This document shows, one piece after another, positions 20,419 through 30,903 of a DNA stretch of 64,000 nt. Source of the stretch: an uncultured Saprospiraceae bacterium. Lineage in GTDB: Bacteria; Bacteroidota; Bacteroidia; Chitinophagales; Saprospiraceae. Positions within the stretch are counted from its first letter, which is position 1. Each line of letters begins with the position of its first letter. The translations under genes and the position numbers were made by a program. Under the pieces are notes generated by a model. It was not told the origin of the DNA. It made no database searches and worked only from the letters and a program-made list of their open reading frames with translations. The DNA lies in assembly GCA_937928575.1 (NCBI GenBank), contig CALFWW010000072.1, forward strand, positions 1 to 64,000, given 5' to 3'.

Positions 20419-21630
20419 TTAGTTTTTGTTCAAGGCATTTGAAATGGTAACAGCGTTATTTCTTTTAATTATTTTTTCCGTAATTAAAATATATAATGGA
20501 CTAATACATATGGTGAGGGAAATCAATGAGATTGTAAAATCATACCCGTAGTTGGTCAATATTTTTAGATTTAATGCAGTGAGGCAAATCAAAAAGCTTA
20601 ATTCTCCTATTTGAGCCAACAATGCACCACCGTATATTGCTTGTGACCAAGGATTACCATAGAATCGCAGGATAACGGAATTAATCAAGTGATTGGTCAA
20701 ATACACGGCTAGTAAAACAGATACCAGCTCTTTCCAATTTTCGTAAATAAAATGAAGATCAATTTGCGCTCCGATACTTATAAAAAAGATGGCGACGAAA
20801 ATAATTCTAAAGGAATGGATTGCTTCATGAATCCATTTGGTAGCTTTCCCAGCGTGCATCAATAGACCACCGACAAAAGCACCTAATGCTTCAGAAATTC
20901 CGAATAAGTTAGCTAACAGCGCACCCGAGAAACAAAAAAACAATGCTAAGAAAACTTGCAACTCATGGTCATTCTTAATTTCTTTTTTGAATGGTAACCA
21001 AGTTATTTCTTTCTTGATGGAGATGTAGAAAATGATACTCATGAAAAACAAACCACCAATTATTTTTAATAAAATAGAGTAGGTAGTAGTCTCTTGACCT
21101 CCTGCAATTGAAATAAATATTAGGATTGGAGCAATCAAAATATCTTGGGCCAACAATATACTGGTAACATTTTTACCAATTCTTTCTTTAGCCAATCCCT
21201 TCTCCTCAATTAGTTTAAAAATCACTGCTGAACTTGATAATGCAATGACAAAACCTAACACTAAGATACGTGTCATTGACCAACCAAACAAAATGCCGAT
21301 ACTATAAACACTTAAAACGCTTAGTAGTAGCTGAGCAGAAGTACCAAAAAATGCCAATTGCCATTCTTTCAGAAAAGAGGCTAAGTCGATCTCCATACCA
21401 ATGAAAAAGAACAACAGGATAATTCCCATTTCTCCTAAAAATTTTACGGATTCCTCATTTTCAATCAAATCAAGCCCATTGGAACCAATCAAAATTCCTA
21501 TTAAAATGTAGGCGACTAAAAGTGGTTGGTGAATTTTTTTTAAGATAAAACCTGCAATTACCGTGAGTATTCCAACAATGCAGATGAGACTGATGGTAGG
21601 ACCGAAACCAGAAAGTAAAAAAAATTTCAT
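20419..21630 (-). CDS. Kef/CPA2-type monovalent cation:proton antiporter
   Basis: 403 residues, about twelve transmembrane segments. It is the membrane module of the CPA2 (KefB/KefC) family, with FFIGMEIDLASFLKEW, SSSAVIFKLIEEKG and LGAFVGGLL. It lacks the C-terminal RCK/TrkA-N nucleotide-binding domain of full KefB/KefC, so it is a short form. It probably exchanges K+ or Na+ for H+. I chose the ATG at 21630; a GTG two codons upstream is possible. The gene is downstream of the Usp/ATP-grasp/M14 genes across a 240-base gap. KefC is controlled by glutathione, which makes the nearby GshB-like ligase notable, but the regulatory domain is absent here. Confidence 0.85.
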   Translation of the reverse strand: MKFFLLSGFGPTISLICIVGILTVIAGFILKKIHQPLLVAYILIGILIGSNGLDLIENEESVKFLGEMGIILLFFFIGMEIDLASFLKEWQLAFFGTSAQLLLSVLSVYSIGILFGWSMTRILVLGFVIALSSSAVIFKLIEEKGLAKERIGKNVTSILLAQDILIAPILIFISIAGGQETTTYSILLKIIGGLFFMSIIFYISIKKEITWLPFKKEIKNDHELQVFLALFFCFSGALLANLFGISEALGAFVGGLLMHAGKATKWIHEAIHSFRIIFVAIFFISIGAQIDLHFIYENWKELVSVLLAVYLTNHLINSVILRFYGNPWSQAIYGGALLAQIGELSFLICLTALNLKILTNYGYDFTISLISLTICISPLYILITEKIIKRNNAVTISNALNKN

Positions 21631-21737
21631 AAGCACTTTATTCTAATCGGTAAACAAGGTAGTGAAATAAAAAGTTTAGTTGGGTGTATTATTTATCGAT
21701 ATCTGCGTTGAAAATAAAGTCATGTACTTTTGCAATG

Positions 21738-21841
21738 CAAGCCAGCGCGGTAACTAAGGCTATGTTTACGTTTTTCGCCTTAATCTCAATAAATTTTTTT
21801 CCATATAATTTGCAAGCCCTTTTGTAGTACAAGCCAGCGCG
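21738..21841. repeat. 12-bp direct repeat CAAGCCAGCGCG, two copies
   Basis: Exact copies lie at 21738-21749 and 21830-21841 in the spacer between the antiporter gene and the Usp remnant. They are GC-rich in an AT-rich region. They could be regulator half-sites or the edges of an old insertion or deletion. Nothing else in the 234-base gap looks coding. Confidence 0.5.
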
Positions 21842-21870: not shown

Positions 21871-22179
21871 TCATCTTTTGTTTATCTGAAAAACAAGCAA
21901 AGGTATTTGATGCTCGTTGATTATCTTTATCACACCACCTTTCATAAATTTTTCAAATGTATCTGAAGCGTGACTGACGATGATAATTAGGTCGATTTCC
22001 TCCGTGTTTTCGAAAATTGAATTTCTCATGCTATGAGCGGAAAACTCATCCTTATTTTTTTTATTTAGTGCCAATACATTCTTCCAAAAATTAGAAGTAA
22101 AACTTTGTTGCTTCAAGAATTTGACTTCGATTTTTGAGGGATCGATTCCAAGCTTTGGCAATTTGTGAACTGACTTACC
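21871..22179 (-). pseudogene. C-terminal remnant of a universal stress protein gene
   Basis: The open frame follows a TAG at 22180-22182, has no ATG, and offers only a TTG at 22159-22161. It encodes about 96-102 residues matching only the second half of a Usp domain protein. IDLIIIVSHASDTFEKFMKGG is the nucleotide-loop region, and IPLLVFQINKR is the last strand. The N-terminal half, including the first strand and ATP-binding start, is missing. It is either a truncated relic or a start-less gene read from TTG. It sits directly behind the M14 hydrolase gene. Confidence 0.6.
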
Positions 22180-22211: not shown

Positions 22212-23174
22212 TTATTGGAGAATACCCAGGTGCAATATTCTTCCACCCGCTTGATTGACTGGACTTACGCTTTTTCCAATGACGACTCCTCTTTCTGGTG
22301 CGCTGTATTCTTCAATTTTATCTCCAAATATATTTCTTAAAGTAGCAATAATTTGATCTTTTTCGACAATATCGGTAACACTTGGATGGACTGTCAGAAG
22401 ACCACCTTTGTCGCAATAGAGCCAATATGATTTTTTGCAAATAAGTGTTTCATCGGAAATTTCTTCTACTTCAGAATCTGTCACACCAATATGTCCAAGC
22501 AAATTATGAATACCCGTTAATCCATCTCTGATCATCCCTTTTTGGAATAAGTTAGGATTGCCAACTTCTAATGTGATAGCAGGAATATCAAGTTCGCCCG
22601 CAGTTCCTCGAAGTGTGCCATCACTTGGAGGATTGTGTACAATGATTTGGGCATTCTGCAACAGTGCCATCTTTCGGACCATTTCATCACTCATATCTGC
22701 TCTGATGTAGTAGGAGTTAACTCTTCCATTGCTTGCAGTATGTAGGTCCAATAAGTAATTGAAATGTTTGATTACTTTGTTGACAATTCTCCATGCGTAG
22801 ACTTGGCTAACAGTCCCATGCTCTTTTCCTGGCATGATGTGATTTAAATCAACACCGTCTAAAAATCTTCTTTTTTTTCTAAGAAATGAAGGAGTATTTA
22901 ACACTGGAATTCCGACAATTGTCCCTTTAAGTTCATTGATATCTATCTCGTTGAATAATCTTTGAATAACAGGTATTCCATTGAGTTCATTCCCATGAAC
23001 AGCTGCAGTAATACCTACCACCTTACCAGTTTCTTTTCCTTTTGCAACAATGACTGGGATTTTTATGGGGACGCCCATACCATCTTCTACCAATTCCAAC
23101 CAATATCTGCTGATACAATTGTTGGGAATGACATCTAAATTTAGTTCGTGTATTACTTCAATATTCTTATTCAT
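22212..23174 (-). CDS. M14/aspartoacylase-succinylglutamate desuccinylase-like zinc hydrolase
   Basis: 320 residues. The zinc-carboxypeptidase-like fold shows the ligands HGNE (His60, Glu63) and DLHT (His145), with the catalytic-type glutamate in TLEVGNP (Glu203). A C-terminal barrel-like tail follows (about 235-320). Known family members remove acyl or amino-acid groups from amino acids (aspartoacylase, AstE); the substrate here is unknown. I chose the ATG at 23172-23174, which overlaps the stop of the upstream ATP-grasp gene (TAATG), so translation is coupled. Linkage to two ATP-grasp enzymes suggests it trims or recycles a peptide-like product (inference). Confidence 0.85.
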   Translation of the reverse strand: MNKNIEVIHELNLDVIPNNCISRYWLELVEDGMGVPIKIPVIVAKGKETGKVVGITAAVHGNELNGIPVIQRLFNEIDINELKGTIVGIPVLNTPSFLRKKRRFLDGVDLNHIMPGKEHGTVSQVYAWRIVNKVIKHFNYLLDLHTASNGRVNSYYIRADMSDEMVRKMALLQNAQIIVHNPPSDGTLRGTAGELDIPAITLEVGNPNLFQKGMIRDGLTGIHNLLGHIGVTDSEVEEISDETLICKKSYWLYCDKGGLLTVHPSVTDIVEKDQIIATLRNIFGDKIEEYSAPERGVVIGKSVSPVNQAGGRILHLGILQ

Positions 23175-24175
23175 TAATTTTCTTTCTTTTTGTGATAATA
23201 TTCCCAAATTAATTCTATCGCTTTTTCTACTAAAGGTTGTTTTTTTAATGCGGCAATTTGTGGAAGACCTCCGATGCTGGTTGTATTTATTTCTGATAAC
23301 ACTCTTTTCCCGTCATCTCCAACAAGCGTATCTACACCATACATTACAATACCAAGTTTAGTTAGTTTTGGATTGATCGTTTGAATGATTGCTGCTTCCT
23401 CTTTTGTAACATCTGTAATATTCGAACTTCCACCCATCGCAACATTACACAACCACGATCCTTTCGCTGGCAGTCTTAATGAAGCACCAAGAATTTCACC
23501 GTTAACTACTATAATTCTTTTATCACCTTGGCTCACATTTTTTAGATATTTGACAGCTAAGTATGGAATGGGGGCTTTTTCGTAAGTAGATTGAAAAGTC
23601 TCAAAAGAAATTTTTTCGTTACCTAAAAACACATCTGTTCCATCTATCCTAACAATGCCTTTACCTCCATATTCTCTAAATGGTTTCAACACTATGGGAA
23701 ACTTTTGTTTAAAAGAAAGTATATCCTCAAAGGTATTACAAATCTTGATTGGTGGACAAACATGTTCAAAGTTTACTAGAAATGCTTTACTCCCTGTTAA
23801 AAATATTGACTTCGGATTGTTAATAATTACTGCATTTGAAAATGTATTGTTTGCAAACTGGAGAAATGCTTTACTCAGTGGTGGTGGCATCCTTAACCAA
23901 ACCAAATCGTAATCTTGTACAGCTACTTCCTTGATTCCTTTCTCTAATGGATGATGTGTTTTATCAAAAGAAAAATCCATTGTGATAGAAGTTGCAAATA
24001 GTTTAGCGTCCTTTTTACCCGAAAAAAAATGCTGGTTTTCTACAATTGCACGCGAAGCAATATCAACACATTTTGTATTCGGATTGCTCAACATTTTTAC
24101 TGACAAATCATAGAGCGAATTTTCAGATGAATGATTGGTGTGGTCAGTTAGGATTAATACTTTTTTCTGTTTCAT
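23174..24175 (-). CDS. Glutathione synthetase/RimK-like ATP-grasp ligase
   Basis: 333 residues. The N-terminal substrate domain is followed by an ATP-grasp fold. VLKPFREYGGKG (ATP-binding lysine and glycine loop, about 155-170), VKYLKNVSQGDKRIIVV, and VLSEINTTSIGG (metal-binding Glu/Asn, about 295-306) match the GshB group. Such enzymes form amide bonds from a carboxylate and an amine using ATP. The start overlaps the stop of the upstream ATP-grasp gene by one base (TAATG), and its own stop overlaps the next gene the same way. No gshA is in the window, so classical glutathione synthesis cannot be assumed. Confidence 0.85.
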   Translation of the reverse strand: MKQKKVLILTDHTNHSSENSLYDLSVKMLSNPNTKCVDIASRAIVENQHFFSGKKDAKLFATSITMDFSFDKTHHPLEKGIKEVAVQDYDLVWLRMPPPLSKAFLQFANNTFSNAVIINNPKSIFLTGSKAFLVNFEHVCPPIKICNTFEDILSFKQKFPIVLKPFREYGGKGIVRIDGTDVFLGNEKISFETFQSTYEKAPIPYLAVKYLKNVSQGDKRIIVVNGEILGASLRLPAKGSWLCNVAMGGSSNITDVTKEEAAIIQTINPKLTKLGIVMYGVDTLVGDDGKRVLSEINTTSIGGLPQIAALKKQPLVEKAIELIWEYYHKKKEN

Positions 24176-25614
24176 TAGTTGATCAAAATTTCATCCAATA
24201 AACTTGCATCATCATTGAGGCTTTTAAATAATTTTAGTCTAAATTTTCCTTGTTTGTTGACAAGCGTTTGTGCCATTTTATCAATAGCTACCATCGATAA
24301 GACAGTCTGAATGTATGCTTCAATCAAGTCATCCAAACCAATTCCTAGTTTATTAAAATCTCTTCGGTCCATCAAGACTAATCTATTGGTATCGCTTCCC
24401 CAGGAACCATCCTGATTTTTTATGGATAGGTTGGTTCCGAGCATAGACCAACTACTCAATTCTGAGCCAACGATGTTGTCAATCAACGGTTTCTCTGCTC
24501 TTCTTGCATAGGTACATAACGGCTTGATCCCGTTTTCTGTAGAACTAACCATCATCCTGATATCCGCTACAAAAGTTTGATTTTTTTGGTTTGGAATGGT
24601 TCCAACATGATAAAGTTTTCCTGCAGAAGTGATACTACTCCAATTAGAATTACCAATTAAACTTTGGACAATAAATAGGTCATAATCAAATTCCAATGCC
24701 ATAAATTTTTCTAATTCTTCTTCAGAAACAATCGTGTAAACACCTTGTCCAGCATTACTGTAAGGAACTTTGATGACTGCATGGCCACCCATTTTTTTCA
24801 CCCACAATGGGATTTCATTTTTACTCACATCCCATATGGTCTCAGGTATATTTATCTTCAGACCAAACGCTTCCAATTCTGCATTGAAGATATCATAAGC
24901 TTTTGCTGCCACCATTTTATTGCGACCACCAGCAAGACAGGCGATGGATGGGTTCAAAATTTTTGTTTTCGAATTGATAGGAATTCTATTCCAAGGCTTT
25001 TGCGTGACGTATCTGAAAGCTGCCCGAATCGGTTTCCATTCTTCTTGATCTAAGACATGCAAAATTCCGTCAACAAATTTTGCTGCTGGATTTTCATCAT
25101 CTTCATGAAAAGAAACATAGTAAACTTGCTCTTGCATGACATCTGCAATTACTTTTGCATAACCAGACACTTCCATGGGGTTCTTATCATAGATAACAGC
25201 AAGTCCTCCTTTAATTTTGTTTCTCAGATTTTTCAGGCTTGGCTTGAAAGTTCTTTCTACCATCAACCGATAACTGCCTTGCTCTTGATTGTCATCTACA
25301 AGTGGCATCGACTTTTGACCAGACGGGCATGAATTGTTTTCTATAACAACCATTTGTCGTTTTCCTTCTGCGGATGTGACATTTAGTAAATCGGCACCAG
25401 CCCACAAAAAGTATTTTGCTCTATGATTAAGGATTTCTTTCAATTTCTCTTTGTTCACAGTCGGATGCATATGACAATAGCGTGTGACAATTCGGTCTTG
25501 GTCCAAACTTAAAAAGAAGCTAATCATCGGATGAATAGTTGCATTCAGAGCTTTTGGATACCAGTGCTCATGCGGCTCAAACTCGTTTGGAGAAAACAGT
25601 TTTAGTTTTTTCAT
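24175..25614 (-). CDS. Divergent ATP-grasp-like protein
   Basis: 479 residues. The middle carries GGHAVIKVPYSNAGQGVY (about 272-289), an ATP-grasp lysine followed by a glycine-rich loop, and later FIVQSLIGNSNW. An unusual conserved-looking patch, IENNSCPSGQKSMP (about 91-104), lies in the N-terminal half. It has no signal peptide and is probably cytosolic. The specific subfamily is not recognised. It is the first of two adjacent ATP-grasp genes, with a one-base overlap between them and 23 bases behind the small Usp gene. A two-ligase arrangement suggests sequential peptide or amide bond formation (inference). Confidence 0.7.
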   Translation of the reverse strand: MKKLKLFSPNEFEPHEHWYPKALNATIHPMISFFLSLDQDRIVTRYCHMHPTVNKEKLKEILNHRAKYFLWAGADLLNVTSAEGKRQMVVIENNSCPSGQKSMPLVDDNQEQGSYRLMVERTFKPSLKNLRNKIKGGLAVIYDKNPMEVSGYAKVIADVMQEQVYYVSFHEDDENPAAKFVDGILHVLDQEEWKPIRAAFRYVTQKPWNRIPINSKTKILNPSIACLAGGRNKMVAAKAYDIFNAELEAFGLKINIPETIWDVSKNEIPLWVKKMGGHAVIKVPYSNAGQGVYTIVSEEELEKFMALEFDYDLFIVQSLIGNSNWSSITSAGKLYHVGTIPNQKNQTFVADIRMMVSSTENGIKPLCTYARRAEKPLIDNIVGSELSSWSMLGTNLSIKNQDGSWGSDTNRLVLMDRRDFNKLGIGLDDLIEAYIQTVLSMVAIDKMAQTLVNKQGKFRLKLFKSLNDDASLLDEILIN

Positions 25615-25637
25615 TATTGGATATTGGTGGATTTGAA

Positions 25638-26021
25638 TTATTCGAACGAGATGACATTCGGCTCTCTGGCAATACCTGAAAGAAATTGTTTGAGAAAAGT
25701 TGTATTTAACTTTGGGGAAGCATCTTGAGAAATTACGTAATCAAAATTTTCATTTGAAATATAGTTTACTAAACTATCTTCTAAGTTGCCTACTTCAATT
25801 ATTTTGGAAAAGTTGATATCAGTTGCTTGCCAATTGTTCATTTTAATTTGATAACTGCCAAAAAGTTTAAGAAGTTGCAAATAGGCTTCGTCTAATGCGG
25901 ATACTTCTTCTACAGCAGTGAAGCAGGTCACTTCTGCTTGTTCTTTTTTTGCCAATTCCATGGTGGCTAAAAAGCTACTTTCATCATAGGAGTCAATAGA
26001 AAATGGGTAAAGTATCTTCAT
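25638..26021 (-). CDS. Single-domain universal stress protein-like protein
   Basis: 127 residues. It begins MKILYPFSIDSYDESSFLATM, the first strand and helix of a Usp domain, and ends with a short final strand (PNVISFE). The ATP-loop GxxG motif is not clear, so nucleotide binding is doubtful. It is the first gene of the minus-strand operon; 23 bases separate it from the ATP-grasp gene. The inverted repeat 40-65 bases upstream may control the unit. Function in detail is unknown. Confidence 0.7.
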   Translation of the reverse strand: MKILYPFSIDSYDESSFLATMELAKKEQAEVTCFTAVEEVSALDEAYLQLLKLFGSYQIKMNNWQATDINFSKIIEVGNLEDSLVNYISNENFDYVISQDASPKLNTTFLKQFLSGIAREPNVISFE

Positions 26022-26424: not shown

Positions 26425-27417
26425 ATGAAAGATTTTCAAAAACACGGAACTATTAATTTTACAACTACATTATTCGCACTATTTGTCCTTGTAGCTTGCT
26501 GTACGTCTTGCGGTGGTGATGATGATGTAGATCCAGTAGATTTACAATCAACCTCCTTTGCATACCAATTTCATAATGGTCAAACAGTTCCATCTGCACC
26601 ATATGCAGGAACACACAGTGATGATTTCAGTATCACAATGGATCTTGAAGAATTAGAGAATGGAAACACGATGATTACAATGAACTTGATGAATACAGTG
26701 GATGGTGCAACATACCGTTTACATGCACATGATGTAGATGATCCAGCAACCACACCGAATGGAACACCTTATGATGAGTCACCGAATGCAGATATTTTTG
26801 CTCAATCTGTACAAGGTAATGGTGGAAATGTAAGTATCAGTCAAGAAGCATCTATTTCGTACTTCGATTTGACCAATACGTATGATGGATTTTTTGTTGC
26901 ACACGATCCTTTGCAAGATATTAGTACAACTGATATTTCAACGTATTTGGTAGTTAGTACATTTGCAAGAGCGCAAACGGCGACTTCATATACTTCAAGT
27001 ACTTTTACATACGACTTCAATACTGGACAAATTGCTCCAAACTTTCTTTATGTTGGTTCACATCCAACTGATGTTTCTGCAACGATTAGAGTGGCAGAAT
27101 TAGCAGAAGGAAGTAGAATTACTGTTTCGATCATGAACACCTTAGATGGGGAAACTTATCCAACTCACGCGCATGATACTGCTGATCCAACAACAACTCC
27201 TAACAATACACCTTACAACGAGACACCAAATGGTGAAGTTTATGCGGGTGCTTTAGCAGGAAATGGTGGAACAGTAAGTTTGGCAAACATTTCTCCAATG
27301 TCTTATGATGAAATTACAACCACTTATTCTGGATTTTTCGTAGTCCATGATCCACTACAAGCTGTGAATACTACAGATCCAACGACGTATATTATTCTTG
27401 GATCATTTGCAAGATAA
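26425..27417 (+). CDS. Lipoprotein with two tandem CHRD-like domains
   Basis: 330 residues. A signal peptide has cysteines in LVACCTSCGG near residue 25-30, so it is probably lipid-anchored. Two ~140-residue repeats follow (about 42-182 and 190-330). Each holds a HAHD motif, a TTPN-TPY-E-PN stretch, GNGG and a GFFV-HDPLQ ending; the second copy ends at the stop. The strand-rich pattern with HAH resembles CHRD/Cu-Zn SOD-like folds, but copper ligands cannot be confirmed. Function unknown. It is divergent from the stress operon and closed by a hairpin. Confidence 0.75.
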   Translation: MKDFQKHGTINFTTTLFALFVLVACCTSCGGDDDVDPVDLQSTSFAYQFHNGQTVPSAPYAGTHSDDFSITMDLEELENGNTMITMNLMNTVDGATYRLHAHDVDDPATTPNGTPYDESPNADIFAQSVQGNGGNVSISQEASISYFDLTNTYDGFFVAHDPLQDISTTDISTYLVVSTFARAQTATSYTSSTFTYDFNTGQIAPNFLYVGSHPTDVSATIRVAELAEGSRITVSIMNTLDGETYPTHAHDTADPTTTPNNTPYNETPNGEVYAGALAGNGGTVSLANISPMSYDEITTTYSGFFVVHDPLQAVNTTDPTTYIILGSFAR

Positions 27418-29399: not shown

Positions 29400-29781
29400 A
29401 ATGCGATTTTAATACTGTGAAAATGATTGTGGTAAGATATAAAGAATCCTCATTTTTATTTTTCAAAATTGATGGATGCAATCACCTTCGAAATACAAAT
29501 CCAGTAATTTGTTTTTTTTAAAATGGGAACTATTATTAACAGCAGCGGGTTATAGTGTTGTATCAAGAGACCATTCAGGTCAGCAACCGAGCAACAAACG
29601 TCACGGTGCTAAAATCGATACGGGCTTGTCTGTCAAAAAAGTTTGAATAAAAATGATAAGTCTGGGTTTTGACGGTGGGCGGTTGACGGTGAATACGCGA
29701 GGAGCTCGCGATCTCACGTATTCCCTGTTCACCGTCAAACGTTCACCGTCTCACTATCCACCATCCTAAAAAAATAAAACT
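29400..29781. other. Intergenic region with a palindromic repeat cluster
   Basis: 382 bases. The right half (29668-29757) holds the first of three GACGGTGAAC-type repeat clusters, described separately. The left half is plain AT-rich DNA that should carry promoters of the flanking divergent genes. No ORF is supported. Confidence 0.5.
29668..29757. repeat. GACGGTGAAC-type palindromic repeat, cluster A
   Basis: GACGGTGGGCGG and GACGGTGAATACGCGAG on the left are mirrored by CTCACGTATTC, GTTCACCGTC and GTTCACCGTC on the right. They surround a core GAGCTCGCGA. Shared words (GACGGTGAA, ACGCGAGG) recur in clusters B and C. This resembles dispersed extragenic palindromes of Bacteroidota genomes. The function is unknown. 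Confidence 0.7.
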
Positions 29782-30476: not shown

Positions 30477-30525
30477 AGGGTTGGACGGTGAACGGAGAAC
30501 GCTTGACGGTGAACGGGGACTACGC
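30477..30525. repeat. GACGGTGAAC-type repeat, cluster B
   Basis: GGACGGTGAACGG occurs, then TTGACGGTGAACGGGG followed by ACTACGCGAGG. The word order matches the left arm of cluster A and the reverse complement of cluster C. Confidence 0.7.
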
Positions 30526-30604
30526 GAGGCAATGTCATGGAAATAAGGATTTTCGACAGTTAAAATTTAGAGTAATTAAATTTTTATCAGAACAATATTA
30601 AATT

Positions 30605-30804: not shown

Positions 30805-30903
30805 AATTACACGAGGATCTCGCGACTCCACGTACTCCTCGCGCATTACCCGTTCCCGGTCTACCGTCCAACCGTCACCGTCCACTGTCACCGTCAACGT
30901 TTC
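30805..30903. repeat. GACGGTGAAC-type repeat, cluster C (inverted)
   Basis: On the minus strand this reads repeated GACGGT words, a GGGAACGGGTAA stretch, then GCGCGAGGAGTACGTGGAG and TCGCGAGATCCTCGTG. It is the same element type as clusters A and B in opposite orientation, with its own GAGGATCTCGCG internal palindrome. Confidence 0.7.

Follow-up and report, generated by a model that had tools for sequence, protein, structure and literature searches.

The window analysed here, 64,000 nucleotides from an uncultured Saprospiraceae bacterium (assembly GCA_937928575.1, contig CALFWW010000072.1, positions 1 to 64,000), carries a compact run of three minus-strand genes for two ligases and a hydrolase. 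This ligase-ligase-hydrolase trio, its conservation, and its recurrent association with polyamine genes are the subject of this report. In order of transcription, the members are:

24175..25614, minus strand: ATPg479, a divergent ATP-grasp ligase of 479 amino acids (aa) and the core of the unit (fold model)
23174..24175, minus strand: GshBL, a GshB-like ATP-grasp enzyme and accessory second ligase (GSH-S_ATP match)
22212..23174, minus strand: M14, a zinc hydrolase of the AstE/AspA type (AstE_AspA_cat match)

Stop and start codons overlap as TAATG at 24175 (ATPg479/GshBL) and at 23174 (GshBL/M14), indicating translational coupling. Because of the second overlap, the M14 start is placed at ATG 23174 and not at the upstream TTG 23207; the TTG start given in the open reading frame (ORF) list would overlap GshBL. 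A gap of 23 bp separates ATPg479 from a 127-aa ORF (25638–26021). The ORF positions, the strand, this gap, and both overlaps are all as described in an earlier note on this DNA, which was made from the sequence without database searches. A scan for promoters and terminators returned sites no more numerous than in shuffled sequence.

The order of ATPg479, GshBL, and M14 is conserved far beyond chance. A single scan of one genome per species found more than 500 loci across public genomes (518 matching stretches, of which the best 80 were kept, nearly all from Saprospiraceae and Kordia). In the 79 distinct loci whose downstream sequence reaches 3 kb or more, ATPg479 is accompanied by both GshBL and M14 in 66, by M14 only in 5, by GshBL only in 2, and by neither in 6. 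Gene order was one of two grounds on which the earlier note had allowed its reading to be refuted, and with 66 of 79 such relatives keeping the trio, the reading survives on that point. ATPg479 itself was present in 23 genomes of a relatives set of 60 (the window's own plus relatives) and in 9 of a phylum-wide sample of 395. No description of the ligase-ligase-hydrolase set was found in the literature searched, although Iyer et al. 2009, reportedly the main catalogue of ATP-grasp neighbourhoods, may mention it; the pathway is apparently undescribed.

Family assignment of ATPg479 at the sequence level was attempted and given up, as neither the window copy nor the 22 orthologues scanned at E ≤ 1 gave a Pfam match, and PDB sequence and profile searches were without match. 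An AlphaFold model built from the window copy aligned with 21 orthologues (48%–88% identity to it) was confident (predicted local distance difference test [pLDDT] 86.5, predicted template modelling score [pTM] 0.91). Its best fold match by VIA-align was 3k1t, a putative gamma-glutamylcysteine synthetase (Z 17.5, root-mean-square deviation 4.2, 335 residues aligned across 44–452), which leads the next structure by 3.6 Z units. Further matches were ArgX/LysX (Z 13.9–13.7) and E. coli YgiC (13.5) and YjfC (13.4), the last two being reportedly peptide-spermidine ligases, to go by the title of Pederick et al. 2023. GspS (2io8) was matched at Z 13.0 over 275 residues, a value similar to that of other ATP-grasp enzymes and so not specific, while the top ranks in Foldseek were yeast glutathione synthase and a putative glutathionylspermidine synthase. 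All 109 homologous matches share residues E92, N94, K282, N287, G289, G291, D351, R353, and N395 without exception. The predicted structure thus confirms ATPg479 as an ATP-grasp enzyme by fold, and the description "divergent ATP-grasp" in the earlier note, which finds no backing in Pfam, holds at the level of the model (ATP-grasp enzymes at Z 12–17.5). As modelled, the shared fold leaves the substrate unfixed. PF08886, the family to which we take 3k1t to belong, matched no ATPg479 member and had no match above cut-off in 296 phylum genomes, including the window's; a profile-profile comparison of ATPg479 with PF08886 was set aside, there being no usable PF08886 member in the phylum.

The second ligase is a GshB-like ATP-grasp enzyme, as previously called (GSH-S_ATP 5.3e-31, 107.8 bits against a cut-off of 23), and scores under the glutathione synthase equivalog cut-offs of NCBIfam (147.1 bits vs 272; 133.5 vs 299). 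GshBL is the dispensable member of the trio, a full-length match being missing from the whole genome in 8 of 18 ATPg479-bearing genomes. Its sequence also changes more quickly than those of the other two (62% vs 88% identity at a same-genus locus). One genome (G024) pairs GshBL with an M14 paralogue away from its ATPg479 locus (L166, contig 239, 7161–9129). The ATPg479 locus of this genome has an M14 of its own upstream, and each ligase-hydrolase pair can occur apart from the other.

For the hydrolase, the AstE_AspA_cat match (PF24827; 1.9e-30, 106 bits) bears out the M14 assignment. The zinc ligands H60, E63, and H145, reported earlier as intact, are conserved together with the catalytic E203 and with R102 and N111 in 94–95 of 95 homologous matches, so that refutation on the other ground the note had offered, the loss of active-site residues from an alignment, failed as well. 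M14 lies far below all equivalog cut-offs (aspartoacylase, AstE, DoeB), the nearest NCBIfam model being DoeB, N-acetyl-diaminobutanoate deacetylase (66 bits vs a cut-off of 402.7). The DLNR arginine of solved relatives, which in aspartoacylase we take to bind a substrate carboxylate, is a histidine in M14 (H112; 85 of 95), and the replacement would therefore fit an amine substrate without a carboxylate.

Three partners recur beside the unit: SpeA, an arginine-decarboxylase-like pyridoxal phosphate (PLP) enzyme; SpeB, which scores above the NCBIfam agmatinase cut-off; and a deoxyhypusine synthase homologue (DHS), which comes closest to the NCBIfam model for a homospermidine biosynthesis protein, with a score below cut-off. 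Of the 53 well-flanked loci, 22 have at least one of these (hereafter the spe genes) within ~10 kb, and of all 101 loci, 37 do. Chance placement of any of them within this distance is ~1.3% per genome, although the loci are related and a raw binomial value would overstate the significance. Among the 37 loci, the spe genes most commonly lie between ATPg479 and GshBL/M14 (16); otherwise they stand upstream, either divergent (11) or on the same strand (6), or downstream, either on the same strand (2) or convergent (2). On the ATPg479 tree, six arrangement labels require 17 changes, and presence or absence of spe genes requires 12, at least 5 of them forced by well-supported branches, so that the linkage recurs and is not explained by one inherited accident. 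No other gene family was as frequent in a consistent place beside ATPg479, and no transporter or oxygenase recurs there.

A small protein, S98 (~100 aa; 98 aa), stands beside the spe genes in 18 loci (including L027, L028, L048, L051, and L053). Its N-terminal half is conserved, its acidic C-terminal tail varies in sequence and length, and it has no Pfam or NCBIfam match. S98 mostly travels with the spe block and not with the trio, and most loci with the trio alone, the window among them, have no S98. Distant members outside the window's family (G166, G368, and G145; 60%–61% identity) keep ATPg479 and M14, lack GshBL, and carry S98; of their loci, L138 has SpeA-SpeB, and L139 and L140 have SpeA-SpeB-DHS. 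Separately, a ~200-aa protein recurs upstream of ATPg479 in ~20 loci, mostly on the opposite strand (e.g., L107, relative position -1386); it is DksA/TraR-like by eye, and a scan of its first 70 residues gave no Pfam match.

SpeA, SpeB, and DHS are all absent from the window. In the ATPg479 tree, the window falls inside a 19-member clade (support 99), and because 15 of the 19 carry a spe insert between ATPg479 and GshBL, the compact form seen here is probably secondary. A genome of the same genus retains SpeA in that position, and the window lineage probably lost the insert, creating the present ATPg479/GshBL overlap. Elsewhere in the window genome (G000), SpeA is encoded on contig 6 with 85% identity to a linked copy, a distant arginase-family protein only is found in place of SpeB, and DHS was not found (genome 93.6% complete). 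The same genome encodes a GCS2-like carboxylate-amine ligase of 637 aa with two C-terminal CBS domains (contig 23, L221:1532-3445), and in many relatives, open frames about as long match GCS2 weakly.

Taking together the genes, their folds, catalytic residues and order, and the repeated polyamine linkage, we tentatively favour reading the unit as a reversible amide-conjugation module for an arginine-derived amine, and put this at just under an even chance. SpeA would turn arginine into agmatine, which in many genomes SpeB and the DHS homologue would take on to putrescine and homospermidine. ATPg479 would phosphorylate a carboxylate with ATP and couple it to agmatine or a polyamine, giving most simply a gamma-glutamyl- or peptidyl-agmatine/polyamine, and GshBL, where present, would extend the acyl part by one residue to yield a pseudo-tripeptide. 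The M14 zinc hydrolase would then cut the amide and free the amine, so that the conjugate would serve as a store or masked form, comparable to glutathionylspermidine with its synthetase/amidase. The substrates, the product, the order of the two ligations, and the physiological role are as we infer them. That the unit takes a polyamine or agmatine as a substrate we hold with moderate confidence, and the presence of YgiC/YjfC and GspS in the fold list of ATPg479 counts in favour of a polyamine. A more specific version, in which ATPg479 founds a new amine-capping ATP-grasp family and, with the M14 amidase and usually GshBL, makes and unmakes an agmatine- or homospermidine-peptide conjugate, seems to us possible but a shade less probable than the general one. 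Within the relatives set, SpeA occurs in 22 of the 23 genomes that carry ATPg479; neither a SpeB orthologue nor DHS is found in 16 of these 22, which weakly favours agmatine as the common amine. Homospermidine as an obligatory substrate was rejected, DHS being absent from 17 of the 23, including the window's; DHS homologues (SpeY) act as homospermidine synthases (PMC9992855).

Several observations weigh against an amine-conjugating role. In 31 of the 53 well-flanked loci, no spe gene lies nearby. Co-occurrence of SpeA with ATPg479 is weak (22 of 23 vs 29 of 37 genomes without ATPg479; Fisher p 0.13, within the family p 0.03), SpeA being near-universal in these bacteria, and DHS shows none (6 of 23 vs 18 of 37). 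By sequence, ATPg479 matches no polyamine ligase, and by fold it comes closest to a putative gamma-glutamylcysteine synthetase. Agmatine may still go on to putrescine by a deiminase route, and the spe linkage may reflect shared regulation and not a shared substrate.

The proposed chemistry resembles glutathionylspermidine metabolism. As in GspS and YgiC/YjfC, an ATP-grasp fold (Z 13.0–13.5) is paired with an amide hydrolase, and as in hss-gss clusters there is a tie to genes of (homo)spermidine synthesis (PMC9992855); where hss and the gene for glutathionylspermidine synthetase cluster in beta-Proteobacteria, the pairing has been taken to point to potential glutathionylhomospermidine synthesis (PMC9992855). 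Membership of the GspS family nevertheless fails by sequence and by hydrolase type: no GSP_synth Pfam match was found in 22 ATPg479 orthologues (E ≤ 1), the hydrolase is a separate M14 zinc protein whereas GspS has a fused amidase, and the unit usually has a second, GshB-like ligase. M14 in turn shares the AstE_AspA_cat domain, zinc ligands, R102, N111, and E203 with AstE, AspA, and DoeB, but sits far beneath their equivalog cut-offs and mostly has histidine for the DLNR arginine. Few systems are known to mask polyamines covalently, the chief ones being glutathionylspermidine and trypanothione. If our reading is correct, the unit would be a Bacteroidota counterpart of glutathionylspermidine built with unrelated hydrolase parts, and a separate chemistry for storing or masking polyamines, formed by a ligase-hydrolase pair tied to arginine-derived polyamine synthesis. 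A protein that had no family annotation would thereby become the object of a specific enzyme hypothesis, open to assay with a small number of candidate substrates. At least two named carriers are in culture, Flavilitoribacter nigricans DSM 23189 and Kordia jejudonensis, and make the unit accessible to study.

The strongest rival, owing to the best fold match (3k1t) and the absence of canonical GshA, is a glutathione-like thiol route, in which ATPg479 would be a gamma-glutamylcysteine synthetase, GshBL would add glycine or another residue, M14 would trim the product, and polyamine genes would lie nearby through shared stress regulation only. The closest fold and an adjoining GshB-type partner are both as expected of an ATP-grasp GshA (PF08886 type, 3k1t) acting with GshB, the lead of 3k1t over the next structure is clear, and the sequence of GshBL is of the GshB kind. 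None of the 60 genomes in the relatives set has a canonical GshA (PF04262), and just one ATPg479-bearing genome among them has a full GCS2 enzyme, so that a gamma-glutamylcysteine route would otherwise be missing. However, PF08886 is unmatched, GshBL falls far under the glutathione synthase cut-off, and the 8 of 18 ATPg479-bearing genomes without full-length GshBL include several with ATPg479 still beside M14, three of these with polyamine genes there as well. An M14 amidase is likewise not expected of glutathione synthesis, and the window genome has its own GCS2-CBS protein. On balance, we consider this route unlikely, at about one chance in five. Less likely again is a modification system, in which the ligases would attach residues either to a protein, in the manner of RimK, or to a small acidic carrier of the LysW kind, with S98 as candidate, and M14 would take them off again. 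LysX/ArgX are the next-best fold matches of ATPg479 and a small acidic-tailed protein does recur at 18 loci, but S98 is missing from most trio-only loci, including the window's; we rejected it as a LysW-like carrier, since it occurs mainly with the spe block, not with the trio, and has a variable tail.

A further rival, which we rate slightly below even the modification system, is a secondary metabolite of the E-64 type, that is, a pseudo-tripeptide of carboxylate, amino acid, and agmatine serving as protease inhibitor or signal. We know of no hydrolase in the E-64/dapdiamide-type pathways. These pathways, which are independent of nonribosomal peptide synthetases, likewise use two stand-alone amide-forming enzymes and an amine from a clustered decarboxylase (PMC12568646). 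In the E-64 pathway, an ATP-grasp enzyme works with an amide bond synthetase, the amine being for example agmatine or putrescine, and the search for it made use of a clustered PLP decarboxylase (PMC12568646). The fast divergence of GshBL would also suit a pathway in which substrate choice varied. Against this, their second enzyme is an amide bond synthetase and not an ATP-grasp enzyme, the proteins are fungal or unrelated, no warhead oxygenase or transporter recurs nearby, and the trio is common across one family, more as in primary metabolism.

The least probable alternative, to which we assign a very small chance, draws in the flanking genes, which are:

25638..26021, minus strand: 127-aa ORF, earlier called Usp (universal stress protein), outside the conserved unit
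21871..22161, minus strand: 96-aa ORF, earlier called "Usp remnant", outside the conserved unit
20419..21630, minus strand: Kef-type CPA2 antiporter, a lineage-specific neighbour (Na_H_Exchanger match)

In the stress unit so conceived, Usp, ligases, hydrolase, and Kef antiporter would jointly couple a stress metabolite to ion efflux. The genes share a strand and are closely spaced in the window, and Kef systems of other bacteria are glutathione-gated. The antiporter is a genuine CPA2 exchanger, as the earlier note had it (Na_H_Exchanger 3.9e-50), but scores under the KefB and KefC equivalog cut-offs (136 bits vs 804; 134 vs 752), and a relative lies near only one of the 108 other related loci, L072. 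Neither supposed Usp matched a Pfam family even at E ≤ 10 or gave a usable match in the PDB, leaving both calls unsupported; a single-sequence model of the 127-aa ORF (pLDDT 47.6) was too poor for judging its fold. Neither of these ORFs nor the outer-membrane ORF had any match in the 108 other loci (109 searched, including the window). A stress operon of Usp, Kef, and outer-membrane genes was rejected on these grounds, the neighbours not being conserved. The earlier inference therefore stands in so far as it described a conserved ligase, ligase, and hydrolase unit for a peptide-like amide, and loses its link to stress and ion efflux.

Some further features lie on either side of the unit in the window. 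Between the Kef gene and the 96-aa ORF are two 23-bp direct repeats with a CAAGCCAGCGCG core (21727–21749 and 21819–21841). At 26425–27417 is a predicted lipoprotein-like ORF of 330 aa that consists of two tandem copies, ~50% identical, with no family above cut-off. Palindromic repeats with the motif TGACGGTGAAC are dispersed at 29671–29750, 30478–30529, and 30835–30897 as inverted pairs around small ORFs, and these TGACGGTGAAC repeats are a possible mobile palindromic element.

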